DNA of 64,000 bases from Fennellomyces sp. T-0311. Taxonomy: Eukaryota > Mucoromycota > Mucoromycetes > Mucorales > Lichtheimiaceae. Below are positions 1,335-11,025 of the stretch, piece after piece. The translations under genes and the position numbers were made by a program. Within the stretch, counting starts at the first letter, position 1; the number at the start of each line of letters is the position of its first letter. The stretch is from contig JALLLT010000018.1 of the NCBI GenBank assembly GCA_025266875.1, positions 248,001 through 312,000 on the forward strand, read 5' to 3'. The notes beneath the pieces were generated by a model. It did not search any database. It was not told the origin of the DNA and worked only from the letters and a program-made list of their open reading frames with translations.

Positions 1335-2670
1335 TTATGATAATGCGGATGATGACGGTTTCCGAGCACTCAACGCCCAGATTTTCATGTGCCAATGATA
1401 GTGTGTACATTCCTGAAAGTATCTCTCGAGCACCATAGTATACTCGTCTGGGTTCTTCAGGAGTCTCTGTGCGAGGAACGGTTTCAATGACCGCATTACA
1501 CTCTTCCATGACCACAGCATCTCGCTTGCAATCGGATCGCCTTCCTTACCTATATCAATATGCGCGTTGAGTTAATTCACATTGGTACGACAGAAGCGGA
1601 ATAAACTCACCAAACTCAATTGCCCGTACATCCTGCTGAATATCAGCAAATGCCGTATCCACCATGAGTGGTTGAAGCTTTGAAGCAATCCAAGGATCTT
1701 GACCCCGGTCCTGCATGGCCCGATGTACTAAAGCCAAATCGATCAGTATCTCTATGCGATTTGTTCCCATGGAAAACCTACATGTTGTCAATACAGCGTC
1801 CATCAATTGCGATTGACCCATTTCCTGTTATATAAGAAAACGTGTTTTAGCAAAGTCGCTCTACACGTGGAAAGAAGTGTTCTACAAGAAAACGGACCGT
1901 AAAATCCGACTCGACCAACTGGACAAGTCCGCCTGGTTTAAGGACCCGAAAGATCTCTGCAAGCACCTTTGGCCACTCTGTGGTTCGAAGGCCTACGATG
2001 AGTTGACGCATATGGACAAAGTCGAATGTGTTGTCGTCGTATGGTAACCCGTCAATGATATTTGTGAGTTGGAACGTTACGTTTTCAGGTCGAATCGCAG
2101 TGGGAAACATATCCGCCATGTCAATGCCAGTAACGTGTGCATTGGGATGCTCGATTGCCATTTCCTTTAAGGAGTAACAATAAGCCATTTTGTTGGGGCC
2201 CCACTTTTTTGAGTAGAATAATTACCATGACCCACGAGCCTGATCCGCAACCAATGTCAAGAATATTGGCATCGTCTGGAAGCTGTTCTTCGACGTTAGG
2301 TAGAATGTTACTATGCAACAAAGAAAATGAATCAACTTCTTTTTCTGGTCATCAAGTTTAAGGGGTGAGAGATTAACCTTGAGTAAAGAGCCTTGATGGC
2401 AAAGTGTTCCTACGTAACAACAGCTATGTGAGTTCCAAATATATACATTCACATATTGAGGCGTGGTGAAGCTGCAAAGAGTCAACGTACTGAATTTAAT
2501 CGGTCTTGTTCTTCTTCATCGCGTGGTAAACAATACGAGCTTGATTCAATGTTGTGATATATCCGTCCGTCGATCATAATTGTGGGTGACGATACCGATT
2601 GGTTGGATGATGGGCTGTTGCTCTCGACACTCGGGTCACGTTGTGATTGTTTAGATGGCCTTGCACCCAT
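1335..2670 (-). CDS. SAM-dependent methyltransferase, class I
   Basis: The protein of about 360 residues would move a methyl group from S-adenosylmethionine to an unidentified acceptor. It begins MGARPSKQ at 2670. Six exons can be joined in frame, including one of only about 35 nt carrying HFAIKALYS. Motif I is DIGCGSGSW, followed by an acidic loop (GIDMAD), the motif LPYDDNTFDFVHMR and the post-motif strand VLKPGGLVQLVE. This is the standard order of the Methyltransf_25/11 Rossmann fold. The C-terminal third (QDPWIASKLQPLM, then a tail with YTMVLERYFQECTHYHW) is a signature I associate with an expanded Mucoromycota family of unknown substrate. The first 60 residues are Ser-rich and probably disordered. 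A pyrimidine-rich stretch precedes the start. The class is secure, the substrate unknown. Confidence 0.85.
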
Positions 2671-3904
2671 TTTGTAATGTTTCAAGTGAGTGTGTGTGAA
2701 AAGAGAAGAGGAAAAAGAAAAAGAAAAAAAAAGGGTCTTGTTTCGCTCTCTGTGTTCTTTTTTCTCGTGACACGTTGCGCGACAGGACCCAGTTGACACC
2801 CAAGACTCCGTCGCCTTTCTGATCATTAAAGGAGTTGAAGATCCCTTTTCCCGGTGCCTTGTTTTTTTTCTTTATTGTAAAAAACCCGGGTCCGTGTGCA
2901 AAAATAATACACAAAGAACAAGCACCAACTTATGTGCACGTACCATTTCTATTCTTTTGGGTCGTTTCGACCGAATCGATCGGACTAGCCCATAATGCAA
3001 AAAATTATACATTCCGTCGACCATCAATCCCCATTGATCGGTTGTCTTGGTGTAACGTTTCGTCTGTCCAGACACTTCGGTGGCTGCAAACTTTTTGTTA
3101 TTTCGATACCTATTTTACGCGTCAATCGGATCACGCCCCGTTTTTAGATTAGCTATGACGCGAAGTTATAGAGAAAAAGAGAAATCCCCCCTCCTTCTCC
3201 ATTGTACTCTCCTTTTACTTTCCTTGGAGAAGAAAGAAAAAGGAGCAGTTTTTTTCACACTGTAAGCAACCGTCGATCATGCTTGTATGTAAAGATTGCT
3301 TGACGGGTTCCACTTTTGTTTGTTTCCCCTCGGGGTAGTAGGGGTCTATCGTCTCTCTACTCTTTCTCCGGCAAAAAGGGCATTCTTTTACTTGTATTAT
3401 GGGTGACGATTGTCAATAAGCAAGCACCCTTGCTAAATATAGTTACTCAGTAAATGCAGCTCTAATTGCATACTGCTCTTATATTAAATAAGGTACTTTT
3501 CAAAAAGAAAATTACATTACTAACATGTCATTAATATTTTTTTGTTCATCAATTTGATAAAGCAACGAAATCTCTTCCCCTTTTACTCTTCATCACTTTA
3601 CATCACTCCCCCTTGTACTTTTTGTCAAAAAAAAACATCGTTCGATATACAGAGGCTGACTTTTTTTTTGACATACAGACACCGCTTTAGCTCCTCTCCT
3701 CCGAAGATCCAAAATGCACGGGCACCTAAAAACGGTGGGTCCCAGATCCTTTCAACTGAGCTTGTATTTGTCGGTATCGACCGATCAAGTGGTGTATTGA
3801 TATTTTGTTTGTTAGGGCTGCAAATCAGATGCTTTTAATTCAACCATACATTATTCGTGTTCCCATGACACCCAATTTTTAATATACCAGTACTTTTATT
3901 ATTA
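2671..3904. other. Intergenic, no gene seen
   Basis: This 1.2-kb AT-rich spacer separates two minus-strand genes. It holds long T and A runs and no convincing exon. The small frames at about 2835-3152 and 3542-3838 have no motif and a biased, low-complexity composition. Confidence 0.5.
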
Positions 3905-4417
3905 CTATTGTTTACGTTTAAAAGCAGCATCACGTAATCCAATTAACCAAGCTTGATGACCATTAAGCATAGGATTTGGCACTTGTTTAGCTAATTTCTT
4001 CGCCGGTTCACCAATTTGTGATTCTTGCGTCAAAATTCGCACTCTTCCCAATGCCAAATCTTCCAATACCCATCCATGCATAACAGTAAAATCTCCACCT
4101 TGCTTTGCAGTCCAAGAAAGTCGGGCCGGTTGCCCAGAACTTGGTCCTTTGAATTCAACGACGTGCGCATCCAGTGGCGGAAATCCGAACGTACTGAACT
4201 TGAAATCAACGTTGGGTTGGAGCATGGGCCCATTGTTTGAAGGAAAATTAATGTCCGCAACATTATCATAGTATGCTTCCCATTTTGATGTATCCACAAG
4301 CAATGGCCATGTATCGTTTACTGATAGTCCTTGAACAACAATCTCGTTGGATACAAAATTATCTGTTGTACCGGGCAAATACTTATCAAGCCAATTGATC
4401 GCTGGTGCTGTGCTCAT
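3905..4417 (-). CDS. SRPBCC / START-like (polyketide cyclase-type) protein
   Basis: The gene is intronless and encodes 170 residues, about the usual size of a lone SRPBCC domain. The pattern fits the fold: an N-terminal helix with a paired strand (FVSNEIVVQGLSVNDTW), a Trp-containing helix segment (LLVDTSKWEAYYDN), then alternating strands (VDFKFSTFGFPPLDAHVVEF and RLSWTAKQGGDFTVMHGWVLE) and a long C-terminal helix. Such domains enclose a hydrophobic pocket for lipids or aromatic molecules, and some act as cyclases or aromatase-like enzymes. No catalytic residues can be named. There is no signal peptide, so it is probably cytosolic. The lack of introns among intron-rich neighbours, and the resemblance to bacterial single-domain members, leave transfer from bacteria open. 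The fold call is from sequence feel, not a search. Confidence 0.65.
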   Translation of the reverse strand: MSTAPAINWLDKYLPGTTDNFVSNEIVVQGLSVNDTWPLLVDTSKWEAYYDNVADINFPSNNGPMLQPNVDFKFSTFGFPPLDAHVVEFKGPSSGQPARLSWTAKQGGDFTVMHGWVLEDLALGRVRILTQESQIGEPAKKLAKQVPNPMLNGHQAWLIGLRDAAFKRKQ

Positions 4418-5245
4418 TGCCTACTTTTTTGTAATTATTGAAAAAAAAAGAGCAAACAACGAAAATGTACAGAGCTTTATTAATTATCCTTGCATGAAAG
4501 TTGACGCGGTAAATTTTGCATGTCGAAATGATATTTATTATGTATGCTCCGGCATCCCACTTACCTTCGATGCCACGGTTGCCACGCATCGAAGCATATC
4601 TATATAGAGTTGATATTACTCGATAAATCACTATTGAATAAAGCCAAGACGTGTCACAGATAACAGTTAGCGTGTGACTGGTCGTGCTCTCAGAGGCCAT
4701 CCTATCAGGTATCTAGACCTGTCGTCATGGTAAAAAAAGAATCGACGTTGTATTACCTTCCATCCCGATATATGGTATTTCATGGGCCGCGTCAAAGAAA
4801 AAGTACGAGGCACTTTTTCCGCGCACGATCGCTATCATACTAAAAACATTTAGCCGTGCAAATCGTTCGACTAAACGCAAAAGTGGTAAGAAGATTCCCA
4901 CGGTGACACAAAAGCATTGACGACTATTCCTTAACAGCTGACCCCACACGTACTACCTGAAAAAAACATTTTTTTTGTCTGGGGCCACTCCAAAACGTAC
5001 TTGTCATCAGAGATTTTTTTTCATATGACATTCAACATTTTTTTAAAAGAAATCGGCAAGGTTGTCTTCAGTCACACATTGAACATTCTGTGTAATAATA
5101 AAAAAAAAGATAAAGTTAGCATAAAAGTCAACGTTACTCAAAGGTGGCGTTTTATGTGAAATGCTGAGCCACATCTTATTGTTACATTTTCCATTAGATT
5201 TATATGGAAAACATATAACTGGACCTTTTTCTTCCTCTTTTATTC
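4418..5245. other. Intergenic, divergent promoter region
   Basis: This 0.8-kb AT-rich spacer lies between the divergently transcribed SRPBCC gene and the USP7-like gene. It contains several A and T runs and no exon that I can support. Confidence 0.5.
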
Positions 5246-8200
5246 ATGCTAAACCGCAGCACCAAGGTAGAAAAAAATAATCAGTTTCAAAAATCTTTTA
5301 TTCATGAAATGTTTCAGGATAGCGAAGAACTTCCAGAATATGGTGAAACTACAGTTACACCGACTCAGGAGCCTGGGCCCCCACGCGCACTGTCCATTGT
5401 ACACGATTGTATGTTGTATAAGGCCAAGCACACATATTATATTATTCTGAGAATATCACAGGGTTCGAAATTTCAAATGGTCTCTTTCCATCTATTGAAG
5501 AACCAGTAATACAAACCCAATGTCATCACTGGGTTATTAATGATTGGGAAGCTTTACCTGTGCGGGCCACAAGCCATACCTTTACTGTCCAGAAACATCA
5601 ATGGTAAATACTCGTGATTATTTTCTTTTGGACGTTTCTGACGACGTCCCTCTTGTAAAGGAAATTGGTCATGTACGCAAAAGGCAATGCAGCAGCGCAA
5701 CAAAATCATTTTTCACTCTATCTTTCTTGGGAAGGTGATCCTGTTGATCCGAATGCTCATATCTGTGTTATGTTTGCTTTTGTTTTATCCAATCGACAAT
5801 ATCCTTCAAGTTATACAACACGGTGTAAGTTTTTTTTTCTTTTCCTGTCGGTAATGGACAGCAATGTGTTGATATGAAAGAAAGGTGGCCATCATCGGTT
5901 CGATCCAATGGGTAGTATTCAAGTATGGGGATACAATAGCATGGCTTCAATCGAAAGTCTTCGTCAATCTGATCAAAGTACTGGTCGTTCCGCCCTTTTA
6001 CAAAATGGACAAATACGTGTTTCCGTCATTATCCGAGTAGTACAAGATGTCACGGGCTACCTATGGGACACAGAGTAAATGAACAGATATCGGTCTGCAT
6101 CAATGCTAACATAAGTTGGATTCGTATAGTTATAATTCAAGAAAAAGTGTTGGTTATGTTCCAATTCGAAATGAACGACTTAAGCAGTATGATCAAGGTC
6201 TTGTCGGTGCATTTCTACAAGTGCTCTTTTGCACGAATCTTTTTCGTCGCAAAATCTTCCAAATTCAAACCAATAATGCCAGCCATTCACCTGTAGCTAT
6301 ACAAATGTTATTTTACAAGCTGCAGTATTCTTTGGATAGCGTCGGTAAGCTTTTGTGGGTATATCTACGCGGGAAAAGTCAGTTCCTGAACATGTCATTA
6401 GATTCCCAGCTTCTTGGTGATATTTTTCATGCGGCACGAGATGTGATCGATGTTAGAGACGCTATATATTCTCATCTTACTCAAAATGTAAGTGCTCTTG
6501 GAGGTAAATACGTGAGTGTATCCATGGTTACTAAAGTATAGTTACATGGTAGTCGGCGATCAAAAAGATTTACGACGAAGTGTTTCGTGTTCGTTTTGGA
6601 GTTGACGAGATAGGTCATTGTGTAGAACGTTTATATAACGGTAGTGGCATCAATTTTTGATACAGAAAATTTAGCTCTTCCTTTGTATTATACGGCACAC
6701 GAGTATTACGGACTTGAACAAGCTCTAGAGGCATTCGGAAAGGAAATTGATATTCTCCCTCCAGTTCTTCACATTGATCTCGAACGCTGGTATGATCATA
6801 GAAAGCAAGACAGTAATAAGAACGAAAAGGTGTGTAATGATATAAGGAGCTTACGGCTGTATACTATTCACTCAATGATAGTAATCCTATACCATATTTC
6901 CATGTATGCAGAACCTTAAACGGTTTACATATCCAGAAGAAATAAACATGGGAATACTCTCGAGTATTTCAATGGGGAAAGGTAAAACGAGGAGTAAAAG
7001 TATACCATCCCAGAAAGTCGAATATGTACTTCACAGGTACGTCTAATCGCTGACAGAATTTATCACGATGTCAAGTACTTTTATAGCGTTATCATGCGCA
7101 ATTCATCCACAAAGAAGTACCATGTGTATATCAGACCATATAGCGGAGAAGCAAAGTGGTTAGTACGTATATATTACCTTTGAGATTGAAGGCTAATAAT
7201 GCTGTGACAATAACGTTAGGCTTCGATTCGAGGTTCATCGTGTGATCCCTGCAAACGTGGACCAAGTACTTCAAACTAAAAACTTTGGCTACAGTACAGA
7301 AAGAGCGCAAATGCTGTCGTATGTACAGAAATCAAAGTTACATGAAGTTCTGATCGATGTTTCATTTCACGATATTCCACGACATATTGGTAAGTTTTGG
7401 CTTCTTTTTTATATATTCATGTATCAGTTAAATCGTTGTGTAGCTCAATGGGGTTACCAAGAAATGCGAGGCAGCGTGGTGCCATCCATGGATCGAATCA
7501 ATTTGATAGTAATTATTAAACAGGTTGCAAGTATGTATTAAACAAAAAGTAACTTTATGTTCCCATTTAGATAGTGACCGACGATACTTTCAGAGACAGC
7601 AAGGTTTTGGATCCTTTCGACATCAATTCGCGATGCGTCACAAAAGTCGTTCGCAACATGTACTCGACGACTGTGAACGATATTTATGCCTTCATAAGCG
7701 AGCATTTCTCTGTACCAAAAGAGACGTTTCGGCTATGGACGATCATTCAAAGAGTCAACAAGACCCTGCGGGTTGATGCGGCGCTCGACACTTCGGATAT
7801 TCAAAGCAGTAAGAATCAGATCGGAAAGACGAAGAGTAGGCATTCTAAACGAAAGGAATGGGAAAAAAAGATTTCCGTACAGTACTTGACAAGTATCATG
7901 TTAAACGGCTGGATGGCGATAATTACCTGTTTTATCTCGAGTACCATTCAGGAAAAAATCTAAACGAGAACGATATCCTCATCTTTATCAGATACTTTGA
8001 TGCTGAAGTTCAAAATGTGCGGTACGTCGCTTCAATACCATCAACAGTTATATGCTGACAATGCAGTAACGTAGTGGGATCAGTCACCTCGTTATTGACA
8101 AACACAAGAAGATCGGATCGATAACCGATACTGTAAATGCAATGGTGGGAAACCCTAGTGACACAGCGCTTGAATTTTACGATGTTAGTAGTACGTTACA

Positions 8201-8531
8201 TTGGTAGTTGAGCAGTAGCTTATTGCATTGGCAGGTGGTACATGAGACTTTGATAGAAAAGTGCGACAGTAGCAAGTCGTTCCAGGAATGCGGAATCAAA
8301 AGTGGAGATGTTATTTGTGCGCAGAGAGCCGCGACAGGAAAGGAGTAGGTATAGCAGGAGCTCCTTGGGACTCGGCTAACAAATTTGGGATACGAACGTA
8401 CTAGAAAATTTACGTTATTTCAGCGTACTATGGATCTGTACGACCATTACGTCTTGGCAGGACTGGTGAAACGAAGCACTTTCAATTTCCAGCGTACGAC
8501 ATCCCGCGGTAAGGATATCATGCCCGAATGA
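5246..8531 (+). CDS. USP7/Ubp15-like protein lacking the catalytic triad
   Basis: About 17 short exons join into one frame of roughly 790 codons; USP7/Ubp15 proteins usually have about 1,100 or more. The order is a MATH domain (HHWVINDWEALPVRA, HICVMFAFVLSNRQYPSSY, GQIRVSVIIRVVQDVTGYLW), a USP peptidase-like domain, then HUBL ubiquitin-like repeats (VTDDTFRDSKVLDPFD, FRLWTIIQRVNKTLRVD, ILIFIRYFDAEVQNVR, FQECGIKSGDVI). The peptidase part still shows GYVPIRN, ILPPVLHIDLERWYDHR and VHRVIPANVDQVL. However, the Cys box (normally NQGATCYMN) reads NERLKQYDQ, the His box (normally GGHY) reads STKKYHVY, and the acidic FDDD before RVIP reads FEVH. A stretch of about 25-40 residues is also missing near 6.63 kb. 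Most exon edges keep frame with 50-60-nt introns; the join near 6,630-6,680 is unsettled. Expected role: a ubiquitin or substrate-binding scaffold rather than a protease. Confidence 0.75.
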
Positions 8532-9036
8532 TCGGATAGGAGTAGCGGTGTCAGCAGAAGCATCCATCGCTCCATTCTGAATTAACTTTGTTTCTCGATA
8601 TTCTATGTATGTGATCATTTTACTATTAGTCTAAATTAAAAGATACGTAATTGCCCCTCGAAGGCTCGCTTAAAGGAACGAAGCCGATTGCTAGTGACAT
8701 TTGCATATCAGCCACAGCAATCGATTCGACAAAGGGAACCCTGATTCATGCAAAGGAGAGACGCTCTCCTTTCAGAAAACCGGTGCTGATGATCGCAGAC
8801 TATTTGCAGGACAGGCCGAAGCCCCTACGCATACAAGGAACAAATGCTTGACAGCAGCTGAGGCACAAGAGCATGCATGAACAAATAGATAAAAAAAAAG
8901 AGAAATGATGCAAATGTTTTACTGAATGTACAGATAAGAACGATGAAACGTCAGGAAGTGAGCGTGTATCCAGTGGCAGGATATATTTTTTTTGGAGTTG
9001 TTGTAAGCTGTAGCTTGTCAATGCGAGGAAATGAAA
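8532..9036. other. Intergenic, convergent 3' region
   Basis: These 500 bases separate the 3' ends of the USP7-like gene and NOP2. A small plus-strand frame at 8651-8851 has no motif and begins inside AT-rich sequence, so I do not call a gene. Confidence 0.45.
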
Positions 9037-11025
9037 TTATTTTTTGCCCTTCTTCTTGCGAAGCTTTGCCTTGGATTCTACACAGAAACAGAAATCAGTG
9101 CCGCCCCTTGGCTTTTGCCCACACGCCTCCTTACCTTCTATATACTTGGCATCCTCTTCATCGTTAAACGTGATCTCCTCGTCCTCCTTCTTATTGCTAG
9201 AGCCGTTTGCCTGCTTCTTTGCAGGTGCATCCTCGTCCTTTCCAGAATCAAACTTGTTGCTCATCTTTTTAAATTTGGCGACGTAGAAACCGTCCATGTT
9301 GTGTACGTGAGGGTAGAACCGACGAGTCAACTTGACGCTGGGATGGAACGTCTGACCACGGAACGAGGTGAAGCCTTCTTTACCGAAATCGAGACCGGTG
9401 GGCACCAACTTGACATTCGGTCGCTTCTTCAGTGCATAGTTGACCACGGCTTCATTTTCTTCCACAGTGACGGAACATGTGGAATAGACAATGTAGCCGC
9501 CAGTCTTGGATTTGGCGTCCACGGAATCGATCGCACTGAGAATCAGCTGTTTTTGCAAGAATGGAATGTCGATGAAGTCCTTTTCGGTCTTGTTCAGCTT
9601 GACACTGGCATCTTTGGAAATAACACCTGTGCCAGAGCATGGGGCATCGAGCAAGACACGGTCGAATCCACCCACAACCTTGGGGAATTCGCGACCGTCG
9701 TAGTTACATACGACCGCATTTTTGACGCCCAAACGATGAATGTTGGCAGTCAAACTCTTCAAACGATCCTTATTGGCATCGTTGGCAAACACCATGCCGG
9801 TGTTCTTCTGCAGGGCTGCAATGTATGTCGTTTTACCACCGGGAGCCGAGGCCATGTCGAGGACACGCTCGTTCTCTTGCGGTGCCAAGGCCATGACGGG
9901 CAAGAACGAGGAGGCTGCTTGCAGAATGTAATGACCAGAGAGGTATTCGGGCGTAGCACCAATGGGCACCTGTGAGTCAAACACTTGAAGACCAACCTTG
10001 CTCCACTTGCCAATGGGATCCAAGTTCACGCCACGGTTGATCAGTGCCTGTGCGAGATCGCGGCGACGGGTTCGTAGGGTGTTGGTACGGATGGTGACGG
10101 GTCGAGGCACTTCGTTGGCCTCAAAGAACTCGATGGCCTCGGACACCGAGAACAGATTGAACAGCTTTTCTGCCAAGAATTCTGAGTAGCCGTAGTAGTA
10201 GGCGATATCCTTGATGAGACGATCAATATAATCCTGACGTGATCTATTTCGCATTGTCAGCACCGTTCTATGCTCCAATATGTTAAAAAAAAAGAGAGCC
10301 TCACGTGTTGGGATCGCGCATGGTCTTGAAGTTGTTCAATACATTGACAAGCTCCTGGATTCGCTGGTTGACGACCGTGACATCGGCCGTAAGCTCTTCT
10401 TCGCCACCTTCGGGCAATTGGAACCCCTCACCCTCTTCAGCAATGTTGGTTTGCATGGCAGACTCCATCAGTTCAGCTTCTGCAGCAGCAGCTTCGCGTG
10501 CTTTGCGTGCCTCGATTTTGCGTGATTTGCGTTCGTCCAAACCTTCAAACTTCAGTCATATTAGCCATTGATCGAGCCATTCATGCCCTACACACCGATC
10601 CTTACCTCAGCAATATGCTCATCATCGTCATCCTCATCGCTATCTTCCTCCTCTTCCTCAGCCTCCTCTTCTTCTTCCGAATCAGAGCCGAGGAAGTTGG
10701 TGTCGGCCTTGGGGAAAATATCCTCGCCGTCACCTTCGAGATCAAACTCATCGTCGAGCATTTCGTCGTCGTCGTCCGAGGCAGCTTCAACATTGTCCCA
10801 AAGATCATCACCACTGTTGTTGGCTTCGGCCAAAAAGTCGGGTTCTTGGTCGCTTTCCTCGACTTTTTCGACAACTTTTTGCTTTTTCAACACCACTTTG
10901 TCGTCGTTGTTTGCTGGCCGCTTTCGCTTGTCGTTTTTCTTATTCTTCGAGGCATTGTTCTTCTTTTTGGAGAATCCGTCCAATGGTGCTGGCGCACCTT
11001 GTTTGTTACGTTGTCGTCGTCCCAT
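9037..11025 (-). CDS. NOP2: 25S rRNA (cytosine-C5) methyltransferase Nop2
   Basis: This nucleolar enzyme methylates a cytosine in large-subunit rRNA (C2870 in yeast) and is needed for 60S assembly. Four exons give about 610 residues: 11025-10606, about 10549-10305, 10243 to about 9138, and a short last exon ending KLRKKKGKK. The first 140 residues contain basic clusters and long acidic runs, as in the family. The core begins RQDYIDRLIKDIAYYYGYS. The SAM-binding motif is DMASAPGGKTTYIA, the first catalytic cysteine lies in LLDAPCSGTGV (motif IV) and the second in YSTCSV (motif VI), so both are intact. The tail is Lys-rich, typical of a nucleolar protein. It is divergent from the Zn2Cys6 regulator gene, with about 617 bp between the starts. 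Confidence 0.95.

Follow-up and report, generated by a model that had tools for sequence, protein, structure and literature searches.

The gene described here occupies positions 5246-8531 on the plus strand of a 64,000-nucleotide stretch of DNA (hereafter, the window) from Fennellomyces (Mucorales, Lichtheimiaceae), the genome of which comprises 45.6 Mb in 182 contigs; we use C90 for both the gene and its contig. These positions correspond precisely to the ATG through the stop codon. We built the gene model by hand, exon by exon, and obtained 18 exons (5246-5266, 5318-5408, 5462-5603, 5661-5824, 5885-6074, 6130-6344, 6402-6487, 6553-6613, 6666-6829, 6912-7036, 7087-7158, 7220-7389, 7444-7530, 7575-7808, 7883-8021, 8075-8183, 8235-8344, and 8405-8531), which are separated by 17 GT-AG introns of 44-82 nt with matched phases. 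The coding sequence of 2307 nt is translated into 768 amino acid residues in a single frame and contains no internal stop, which bears out the initial annotation of about 17 exons in one frame with canonical splice sites. The marks of an ordinary pseudogene (frame breaks, stops, and lost splice sites) were all absent from C90. The downstream neighbour, at 9037-10335 on the minus strand, encodes an RNA methyltransferase of the RsmB/F type (Pfam, 2e-75).

A database protein for the same locus (P0001; 781 amino acid residues), named as an "ICP0-binding domain of USP7" protein, supports the coding region and differs from our model in four splice choices, at 6614-6665, 7390-7443, 7531-7574, and 7809-7882. 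Our exons were picked by hand, and these four choices are ambiguous. P0001 translates 7390-7443, a 54-base GT-AG stretch that is intron 12 in our model and looks like a retained intron.

The encoded protein contains a MATH domain, a USP domain, and HUBL1-2, in this order. Three Pfam matches were above the cut-off: USP7_ICP0_bdg (1.6e-31), MATH_2 (1.7e-10), and UCH (2e-9). The MATH (TRAF-like) domain is encoded by exons 3-5 (5462-6074) and retains the Trp of the peptide site, as VWG in place of DWG. It is followed by an eroded USP thumb, placed by alignments in exons 6-7 (6130-6487), shortened fingers and the start of the palm (LPPVLH) in exons 8-9 (6553-6829, where the splice choice within 6600-6675 is uncertain), and the palm in exons 10-12 (6912-7389); the best UCH stretch is limited to profile positions 118-254, over residues 304-478. 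HUBL1 and HUBL2, the ICP0-binding region, are encoded by exons 14-17 (7575-8344). The last exon (8405-8531) ends with the stop codon at a place where the canonical copies run on into HUBL3-5. Neither USP7_C2, the C-terminal HUBL part, nor a zf-UBP zinc finger was found among the Pfam matches of C90 at E up to 1, and downstream of HUBL2 the alignment of canonical USP7 into the DNA was poor. Thus, the previously described order of MATH, peptidase-like, and HUBL regions, as in USP7/Ubp15, holds, but the absence of HUBL3-5 had been missed.

The relationship of C90 to USP7 was evident from several comparisons. The protein matched USP7 of solved structure at 3.4e-27. The spliced alignment of window positions 4401-9400 to the canonical USP7 of the same genome scored 708 and was free of frame shifts and stops, its tail extending beyond HUBL2 into poorly matching DNA. 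None of 20 dinucleotide shuffles scored above 121, and none of 21 other combinations of window stretch and strand above 160, which rules out a chance match or a wrong frame. For 12 of the 17 introns, one or more of the three canonical copies has an intron in precisely the same alignment column and in the same phase; when introns were placed at random 5000 times, the mean number of matches was 0.13 and the highest was 3. By these alignments, C90 is an intron-bearing duplicate of a USP7 gene, and the duplication occurred at the DNA level, because the introns were kept.

Other copies in the genome were sought using three protein queries plus a domain profile; only the best candidates were scored, and the number found is therefore a lower bound. 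Besides the window, at least eight places were USP7-like. Three of them are canonical USP7 genes, which have the complete triad and can be aligned up to and including the C-terminal HUBLs, located on contig C1 near 444 kb (C1a) and near 1,896 kb (C1b) and on contig C13 near 369 kb (C13). Two others have open frames without the triad: C133 (G000:C133:238501-241731, minus strand, 741 amino acid residues) and C95b (contig C95 near 546-549 kb, 546093-549170, 702 amino acid residues, with an unclear N-terminus). C90, C133, and C95b all stop just after HUBL2. Directly upstream of C95b lies a frame-broken copy, C95a (about 1570-5040 of the stretch G000:C95:540000-549999). The remaining two are 3' fragments: C117, a near-copy, about 1.4 kb long, of the 3' end and downstream flank of C133 (near 1,139.7 kb; 3168-4747 of the stretch examined), and C104, an older, decayed copy of the 3' end of C133 (near 10.5 kb; 3365-3778 of the stretch examined). 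With a frameshift-tolerant aligner and one profile shared by both, C90 showed no breaks and no stops, and C95a showed six breaks and two stops. The same six frame shifts and two stops were counted in C95a against C95b. This count varies with the query, being five and two against C1b, and one and zero against C90, in which case the aligner used 23 exons and skipped the broken stretches.

A DNA search gave, besides C90 itself, only 97 bases in C133 and 80 bases in C117; a recent duplicate of C90 was thus rejected. The protein database returned only the C90 locus and canonical USP7 relatives (from three chytrids, a plant, and an alga), and hence no orthologue of C90 outside this genome, in a weak search that returned no other USP7 from Mucorales. 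The same search missed C133 and C95b even when their models were in the query. Because the database did not return them, these two genes are probably not annotated in their present form.

The catalytic triad of human USP7 is numbered C223, H464, and D481 (PMC6188144, PMC7419626, in the passages concerned). In hand-aligned blocks with this numbering, C90 keeps none of the three residues and each of the three canonical copies keeps all of them. For these residue counts, the blocks were lined up by eye, since the switching loop of C90 and C133 had come out of register in the automatic alignment. The degenerate Cys box (6170-6199, by alignment) reads NERLKQYDQ followed by Gly and contains no Cys. 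The initial annotation placed Gln at the position of the catalytic Cys, which is correct for a gapless reading; the alignment with the sister copies puts four extra residues in the Cys box of C90 and gives Gly, as in the sisters, and there is no Cys in either case. The degenerate His box (7106-7129) reads STKKYHVY, in which Lys (7115-7117) takes the position of the catalytic His and the next Tyr is kept. At 7227-7238, the alignment shows FEVH replacing the acidic FDDD, as noted before, but the change at the catalytic position is the conservative one of Asp to Glu. The earlier statement that all three catalytic residues are lost was therefore borne out by the alignment. C133 and C95b also keep none of the three. 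Gly occupies the position of the catalytic Cys in C90, C133, C95b, and C95a; the position of the His is occupied by Lys in C90 and C133, Met in C95b, and Ala in C95a, and that of the Asp by Glu in C90, Asn in C133, Gln in C95b, and His in C95a. The Cys box of C95a, GSTGYMN, is close to the canonical box, with Cys changed to Gly.

An error in the gene model, in which an unrecognised exon would carry the Cys or His box, is hardly credible. The splice choices near 6614-6665 and 7531-7574 are ambiguous and the two models differ, as described above. Both models lack a Cys box and a His box, however, and the check for an alternative exon that had been proposed earlier, performed here on the DNA, found neither the Cys-box pattern nor G[GH]HY in the six frames of window positions 4701-9000; one loose GHY occurs on the minus strand in that region. 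In addition, the introns on either side of the two box-bearing exons (6 and 11) lie at canonical positions, and the sister copies show the same loss of the triad.

C90 is thus predicted to be unable to cleave ubiquitin. Some USPs that had been called dead, namely USP53/54 and USP52, were later reported to be active, as stated in passages of two papers (PMC12037411; PMC10919355), and C90 contains eight Cys residues; the protein might still act as a deubiquitinase through another cysteine, a claim made for USP52 and a matter of debate for USP39. USP53/54, however, keep the catalytic Cys, according to a passage of the former paper (PMC12037411). C90 has none of the three catalytic residues, its His-box loop and fingers have changed, and it lacks HUBL4-5; UBL4-5 are described as required for the full activity of USP7 (PMC7419626, in part). 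We consider activity through another cysteine very improbable.

The initial annotation also stated that the ubiquitin-binding parts were well kept, and this did not hold. The fingers, described in a passage of PMC7419626 as the primary ubiquitin interface of USP7, comprise 55 residues in C90, 42 in C133, and 51 in C95b, versus 85 in C1b and C13. A single fingers deletion common to all the dead copies was considered: it is plain in C133, C95b, and C95a, but for C90 only a shortening is shown, as phmmer and MAFFT aligned the C90 sequence YYTAHEYYGLEQ with the very segment missing from the other three. For the cleft that holds the ubiquitin tail, the claim was half true. We counted nine residues, which are nine of the 15 listed for the thumb-palm inhibitor site S7 in the part of PMC6188144 concerned; in hand alignments, five of them are kept in C90, four in C133, eight in C95b, and all nine in each canonical copy. 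Of the six other S7 residues, H294 is replaced in each of the open dead copies, M407 is Lys in the canonical copies as well, and the remainder are M292, Q351, Y411, and Q417.

A non-catalytic scaffold, in which the dead USP core of C90 would still grip ubiquitin or a ubiquitin-like protein, draws on the cleft residues kept (5/9, and 8/9 in C95b) and on the match to the UCH profile above the cut-off. We regard it as quite unlikely for C90. The shortened fingers are hard to align, the cleft of C133 retains only 4/9, H294 is replaced in all the open dead copies, and the USP domain has diverged far more among the dead copies than among the active ones (see below). As C95b keeps eight of the nine cleft residues, it is a better candidate than C90 for a dead USP that might bind ubiquitin.

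The two other regions were inspected for their own binding residues. In the MATH domain of C90, D164 is changed to Val and W165 is kept; C133 and C95b keep both. Of the acidic patch of HUBL2 (D758, E759, and D764, judged by eye on alignments), only D764 is kept in C90. With D164 and most of the acidic patch lost, the usual ligands may not bind, and these changes suggest an altered choice of partners. An AlphaFold2 model of P0001 with five homologues had a mean pLDDT of 54.5 and a pTM of 0.33, with residues 196-350 under 50; the model was usable for MATH and HUBL1-2 and not for the thumb and fingers.

In a maximum-likelihood tree of 11 sequences, from which the frame-broken C95a was left out, C90, C133, and C95b formed one clade with a support of 100, and C90 grouped with C133 within it, also with 100. 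The dead clade together with C1a and C1b was separated from C13 and the outgroups with a support of 98, and C1a grouped with C1b with only 49. The branches leading to the dead copies are long (0.81-0.94 substitutions per site), and the exact attachment of the clade is uncertain for this reason. The simplest reading of the tree is that catalysis was lost once and that duplication followed.

We then compared the conservation of the USP domain with that of the regions on both sides. Among pairs of canonical copies, the USP domain was identical at 253/321, 223/320, and 238/326 positions (70-79%), and MATH plus HUBL1-2 at 38-42%. Among pairs of dead copies, the corresponding values were 82/228, 68/228, and 76/250 (30-36%) for the USP domain and 142/349, 111/339, and 126/344 (33-41%) for MATH plus HUBL1-2. 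The pair C90-C133 (USP 36%, flanks 41%) differed from the pair C1a-C1b (USP 79%, flanks 151/358, 42%) in the USP domain (Fisher's test, p = 3e-24) and not in the flanks (p = 0.70). As the identity of the USP domain dropped and that of the flanks remained equal, constraint across the clade has left the enzyme core and stayed on MATH and HUBL1-2. This domain-wise pattern is better explained by a retained role in binding than by mere decay.

Between C90 and C133, the differences at codon positions 1, 2, and 3 were 0.48, 0.35, and 0.63, and four-fold sites were saturated at 0.74, a pattern of purifying selection over the long term; no dN/dS value is given, because the dS of the NG86 method was saturated in the three pairs tested. 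In a neutral simulation starting from the C90 coding sequence, a mean of nine stops had appeared at 0.1 substitution per site, and none of the 500 runs at each of four divergences from 0.1 to 1.0 was free of stops. C90 is thus unlikely to be a dead gene, because its frame is open and no neutral run remained so.

A more recent comparison was offered by C117, in which the greater part of the three final exons of C133 and about 1.1 kb of noncoding DNA are duplicated, with 92-94% identity. The exons differed at 5/280 positions versus 82/1127 in the noncoding DNA (p = 2.5e-4); the exon differences comprised 2/221 nonsynonymous (p = 5e-5) and 3/58 synonymous sites. By this count, there is recent constraint in C133/C117, which covers the 3' exons of HUBL2 of C133 only and not C90. 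C104, on the other hand, is 73% identical to the 3' end of C133 (pN 0.22, pS 0.29), has two stops within the aligned codons, reads Glu at the stop codon of C133, and shows nonsynonymous change not significantly below the noncoding change (p = 0.15). Since C95a and C104 are broken, the dead-copy family evidently also decays. Maintenance after the loss of catalysis is supported by these sequences at the level of the clade and for the sister pair C133/C117; C90 enters this evidence as a member of the clade.

The GC3 of the dead copies (0.38-0.42; 0.39 in C90) is near that of noncoding DNA (0.36 GC in the C90 introns), and the canonical copies have values of 0.55-0.62; such a low GC3 could reflect relaxed codon choice or weak expression. 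Of the two neighbours of C90, the upstream open reading frame (3905-4420) has a GC3 of 0.33 and the downstream gene has 0.60. C90 could accordingly be a relict, that is, a once-useful truncated copy of USP7 that is now under weak or no selection and in which no frame break has yet arisen. The low GC3, the long branches, the broken C95a and the stops in C104, and the change of D164 to Val in the MATH site all speak for such a relict. We nevertheless judge it unlikely, in view of 768 codons and 17 introns without a stop or frame break where no neutral run remained open, of flanks conserved to the same degree as in the active copies, and of the recent constraint in C133/C117.

With a probability of roughly 0.55, we favour the reading that C90 is a non-catalytic, C-terminally truncated USP7 paralogue in a small dead clade and acts as an adaptor or decoy through MATH and HUBL1-2. 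The sequence shows that a normal USP7 gene was duplicated at the DNA level with its introns, that the triad is replaced, HUBL3-5 are missing, and the fingers are shortened, and that the frame is open. The TRAF-like domain and UBL1-2 are the two major substrate-binding sites of USP7, according to a passage of PMC7419626. MATH, which would recognise peptide motifs, and HUBL1-2, which would recognise basic motifs, may therefore hold partners that C90 shares with active USP7. Having neither triad nor activating tail, and with its grip on ubiquitin cut, C90 would hold these partners without releasing ubiquitin. As an adaptor or a competitive decoy, it could limit the access of at least one of the three active USP7 copies to some substrates or ligases; competition with active USP7 would be the most direct consequence of such binding. 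The initial annotation had proposed a maintained, non-catalytic ubiquitin scaffold or decoy; the kept frame and the replaced triad agree with this, but the ubiquitin scaffold is not supported, because the fingers are shortened and constraint has dropped in the USP domain. A substrate-binding adaptor or decoy fits better, because MATH and HUBL1-2 are as constrained as in the active copies. The strongest evidence comes from the sister copies, of which the initial annotation was unaware. More tentatively, and with some doubt on our part, a USP7 copy that no longer had catalytic activity, the complete fingers, or the activating tail may have given rise, in this mucoralean lineage, to a birth-and-death family of MATH-HUBL1-2 adaptors that antagonise the active USP7 enzymes of the same cell, the choice of partners diverging from copy to copy. 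If this is true, there is a pseudoenzyme branch within the USP7 family.

Ubp15 is an active deubiquitinase with the architecture MATH-USP-HUBL1-5, like USP7/HAUSP. C90 resembles these enzymes in having MATH, USP, and HUBL1-2 in order and 12 of its 17 introns in common with the canonical copies, and differs from them in that the triad is replaced, the fingers are short, HUBL3-5 are absent, and the USP domain has ceased to be the best-conserved region. USP39/Sad1 and USP52/PAN2 are described in a passage of PMC10919355 as USP-type pseudodeubiquitinases, working genes without catalytic residues. C90 likewise contains a homologous, USP-derived domain minus the catalytic residues, by which such proteins are defined. 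PAN2 has an exonuclease as an accessory part. USP39 has a zinc finger (PMC10919355, in part), whereas C90 has MATH and HUBL regions and comes from a USP7 branch with several copies. The Drosophila homologues of OTUD4, CG3251 and Otu, are described in part of PMC4654579 as cases in which the catalytic Cys was lost repeatedly and duplicates apparently function independently of deubiquitination. The C90 clade shows the same combination of Cys loss and duplicated copies; CG3251 and Otu, in contrast, belong to the OTU family, have Cys changed to Ser, and have an unrelated domain architecture. TSPYL5 restrains USP7 by competing at the TRAF-like site (a passage of PMC7419626). The outcome proposed for C90, fewer substrates reaching active USP7, is similar, but TSPYL5 binds USP7 itself. 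To our knowledge, TSPYL5 is not a paralogue of USP7. Among the matches listed in a search of the open-licence full-text literature, no pseudoenzyme branch of USP7 was found. USP-type pseudodeubiquitinases are known, as is Cys loss with duplication in OTUD4. As active, dead but open, and broken copies occur in one genome, the order in which catalysis was lost and binding was kept can be studied here, and the C90 family would provide a clean test of whether the two substrate-binding parts of USP7 are useful without the protease.
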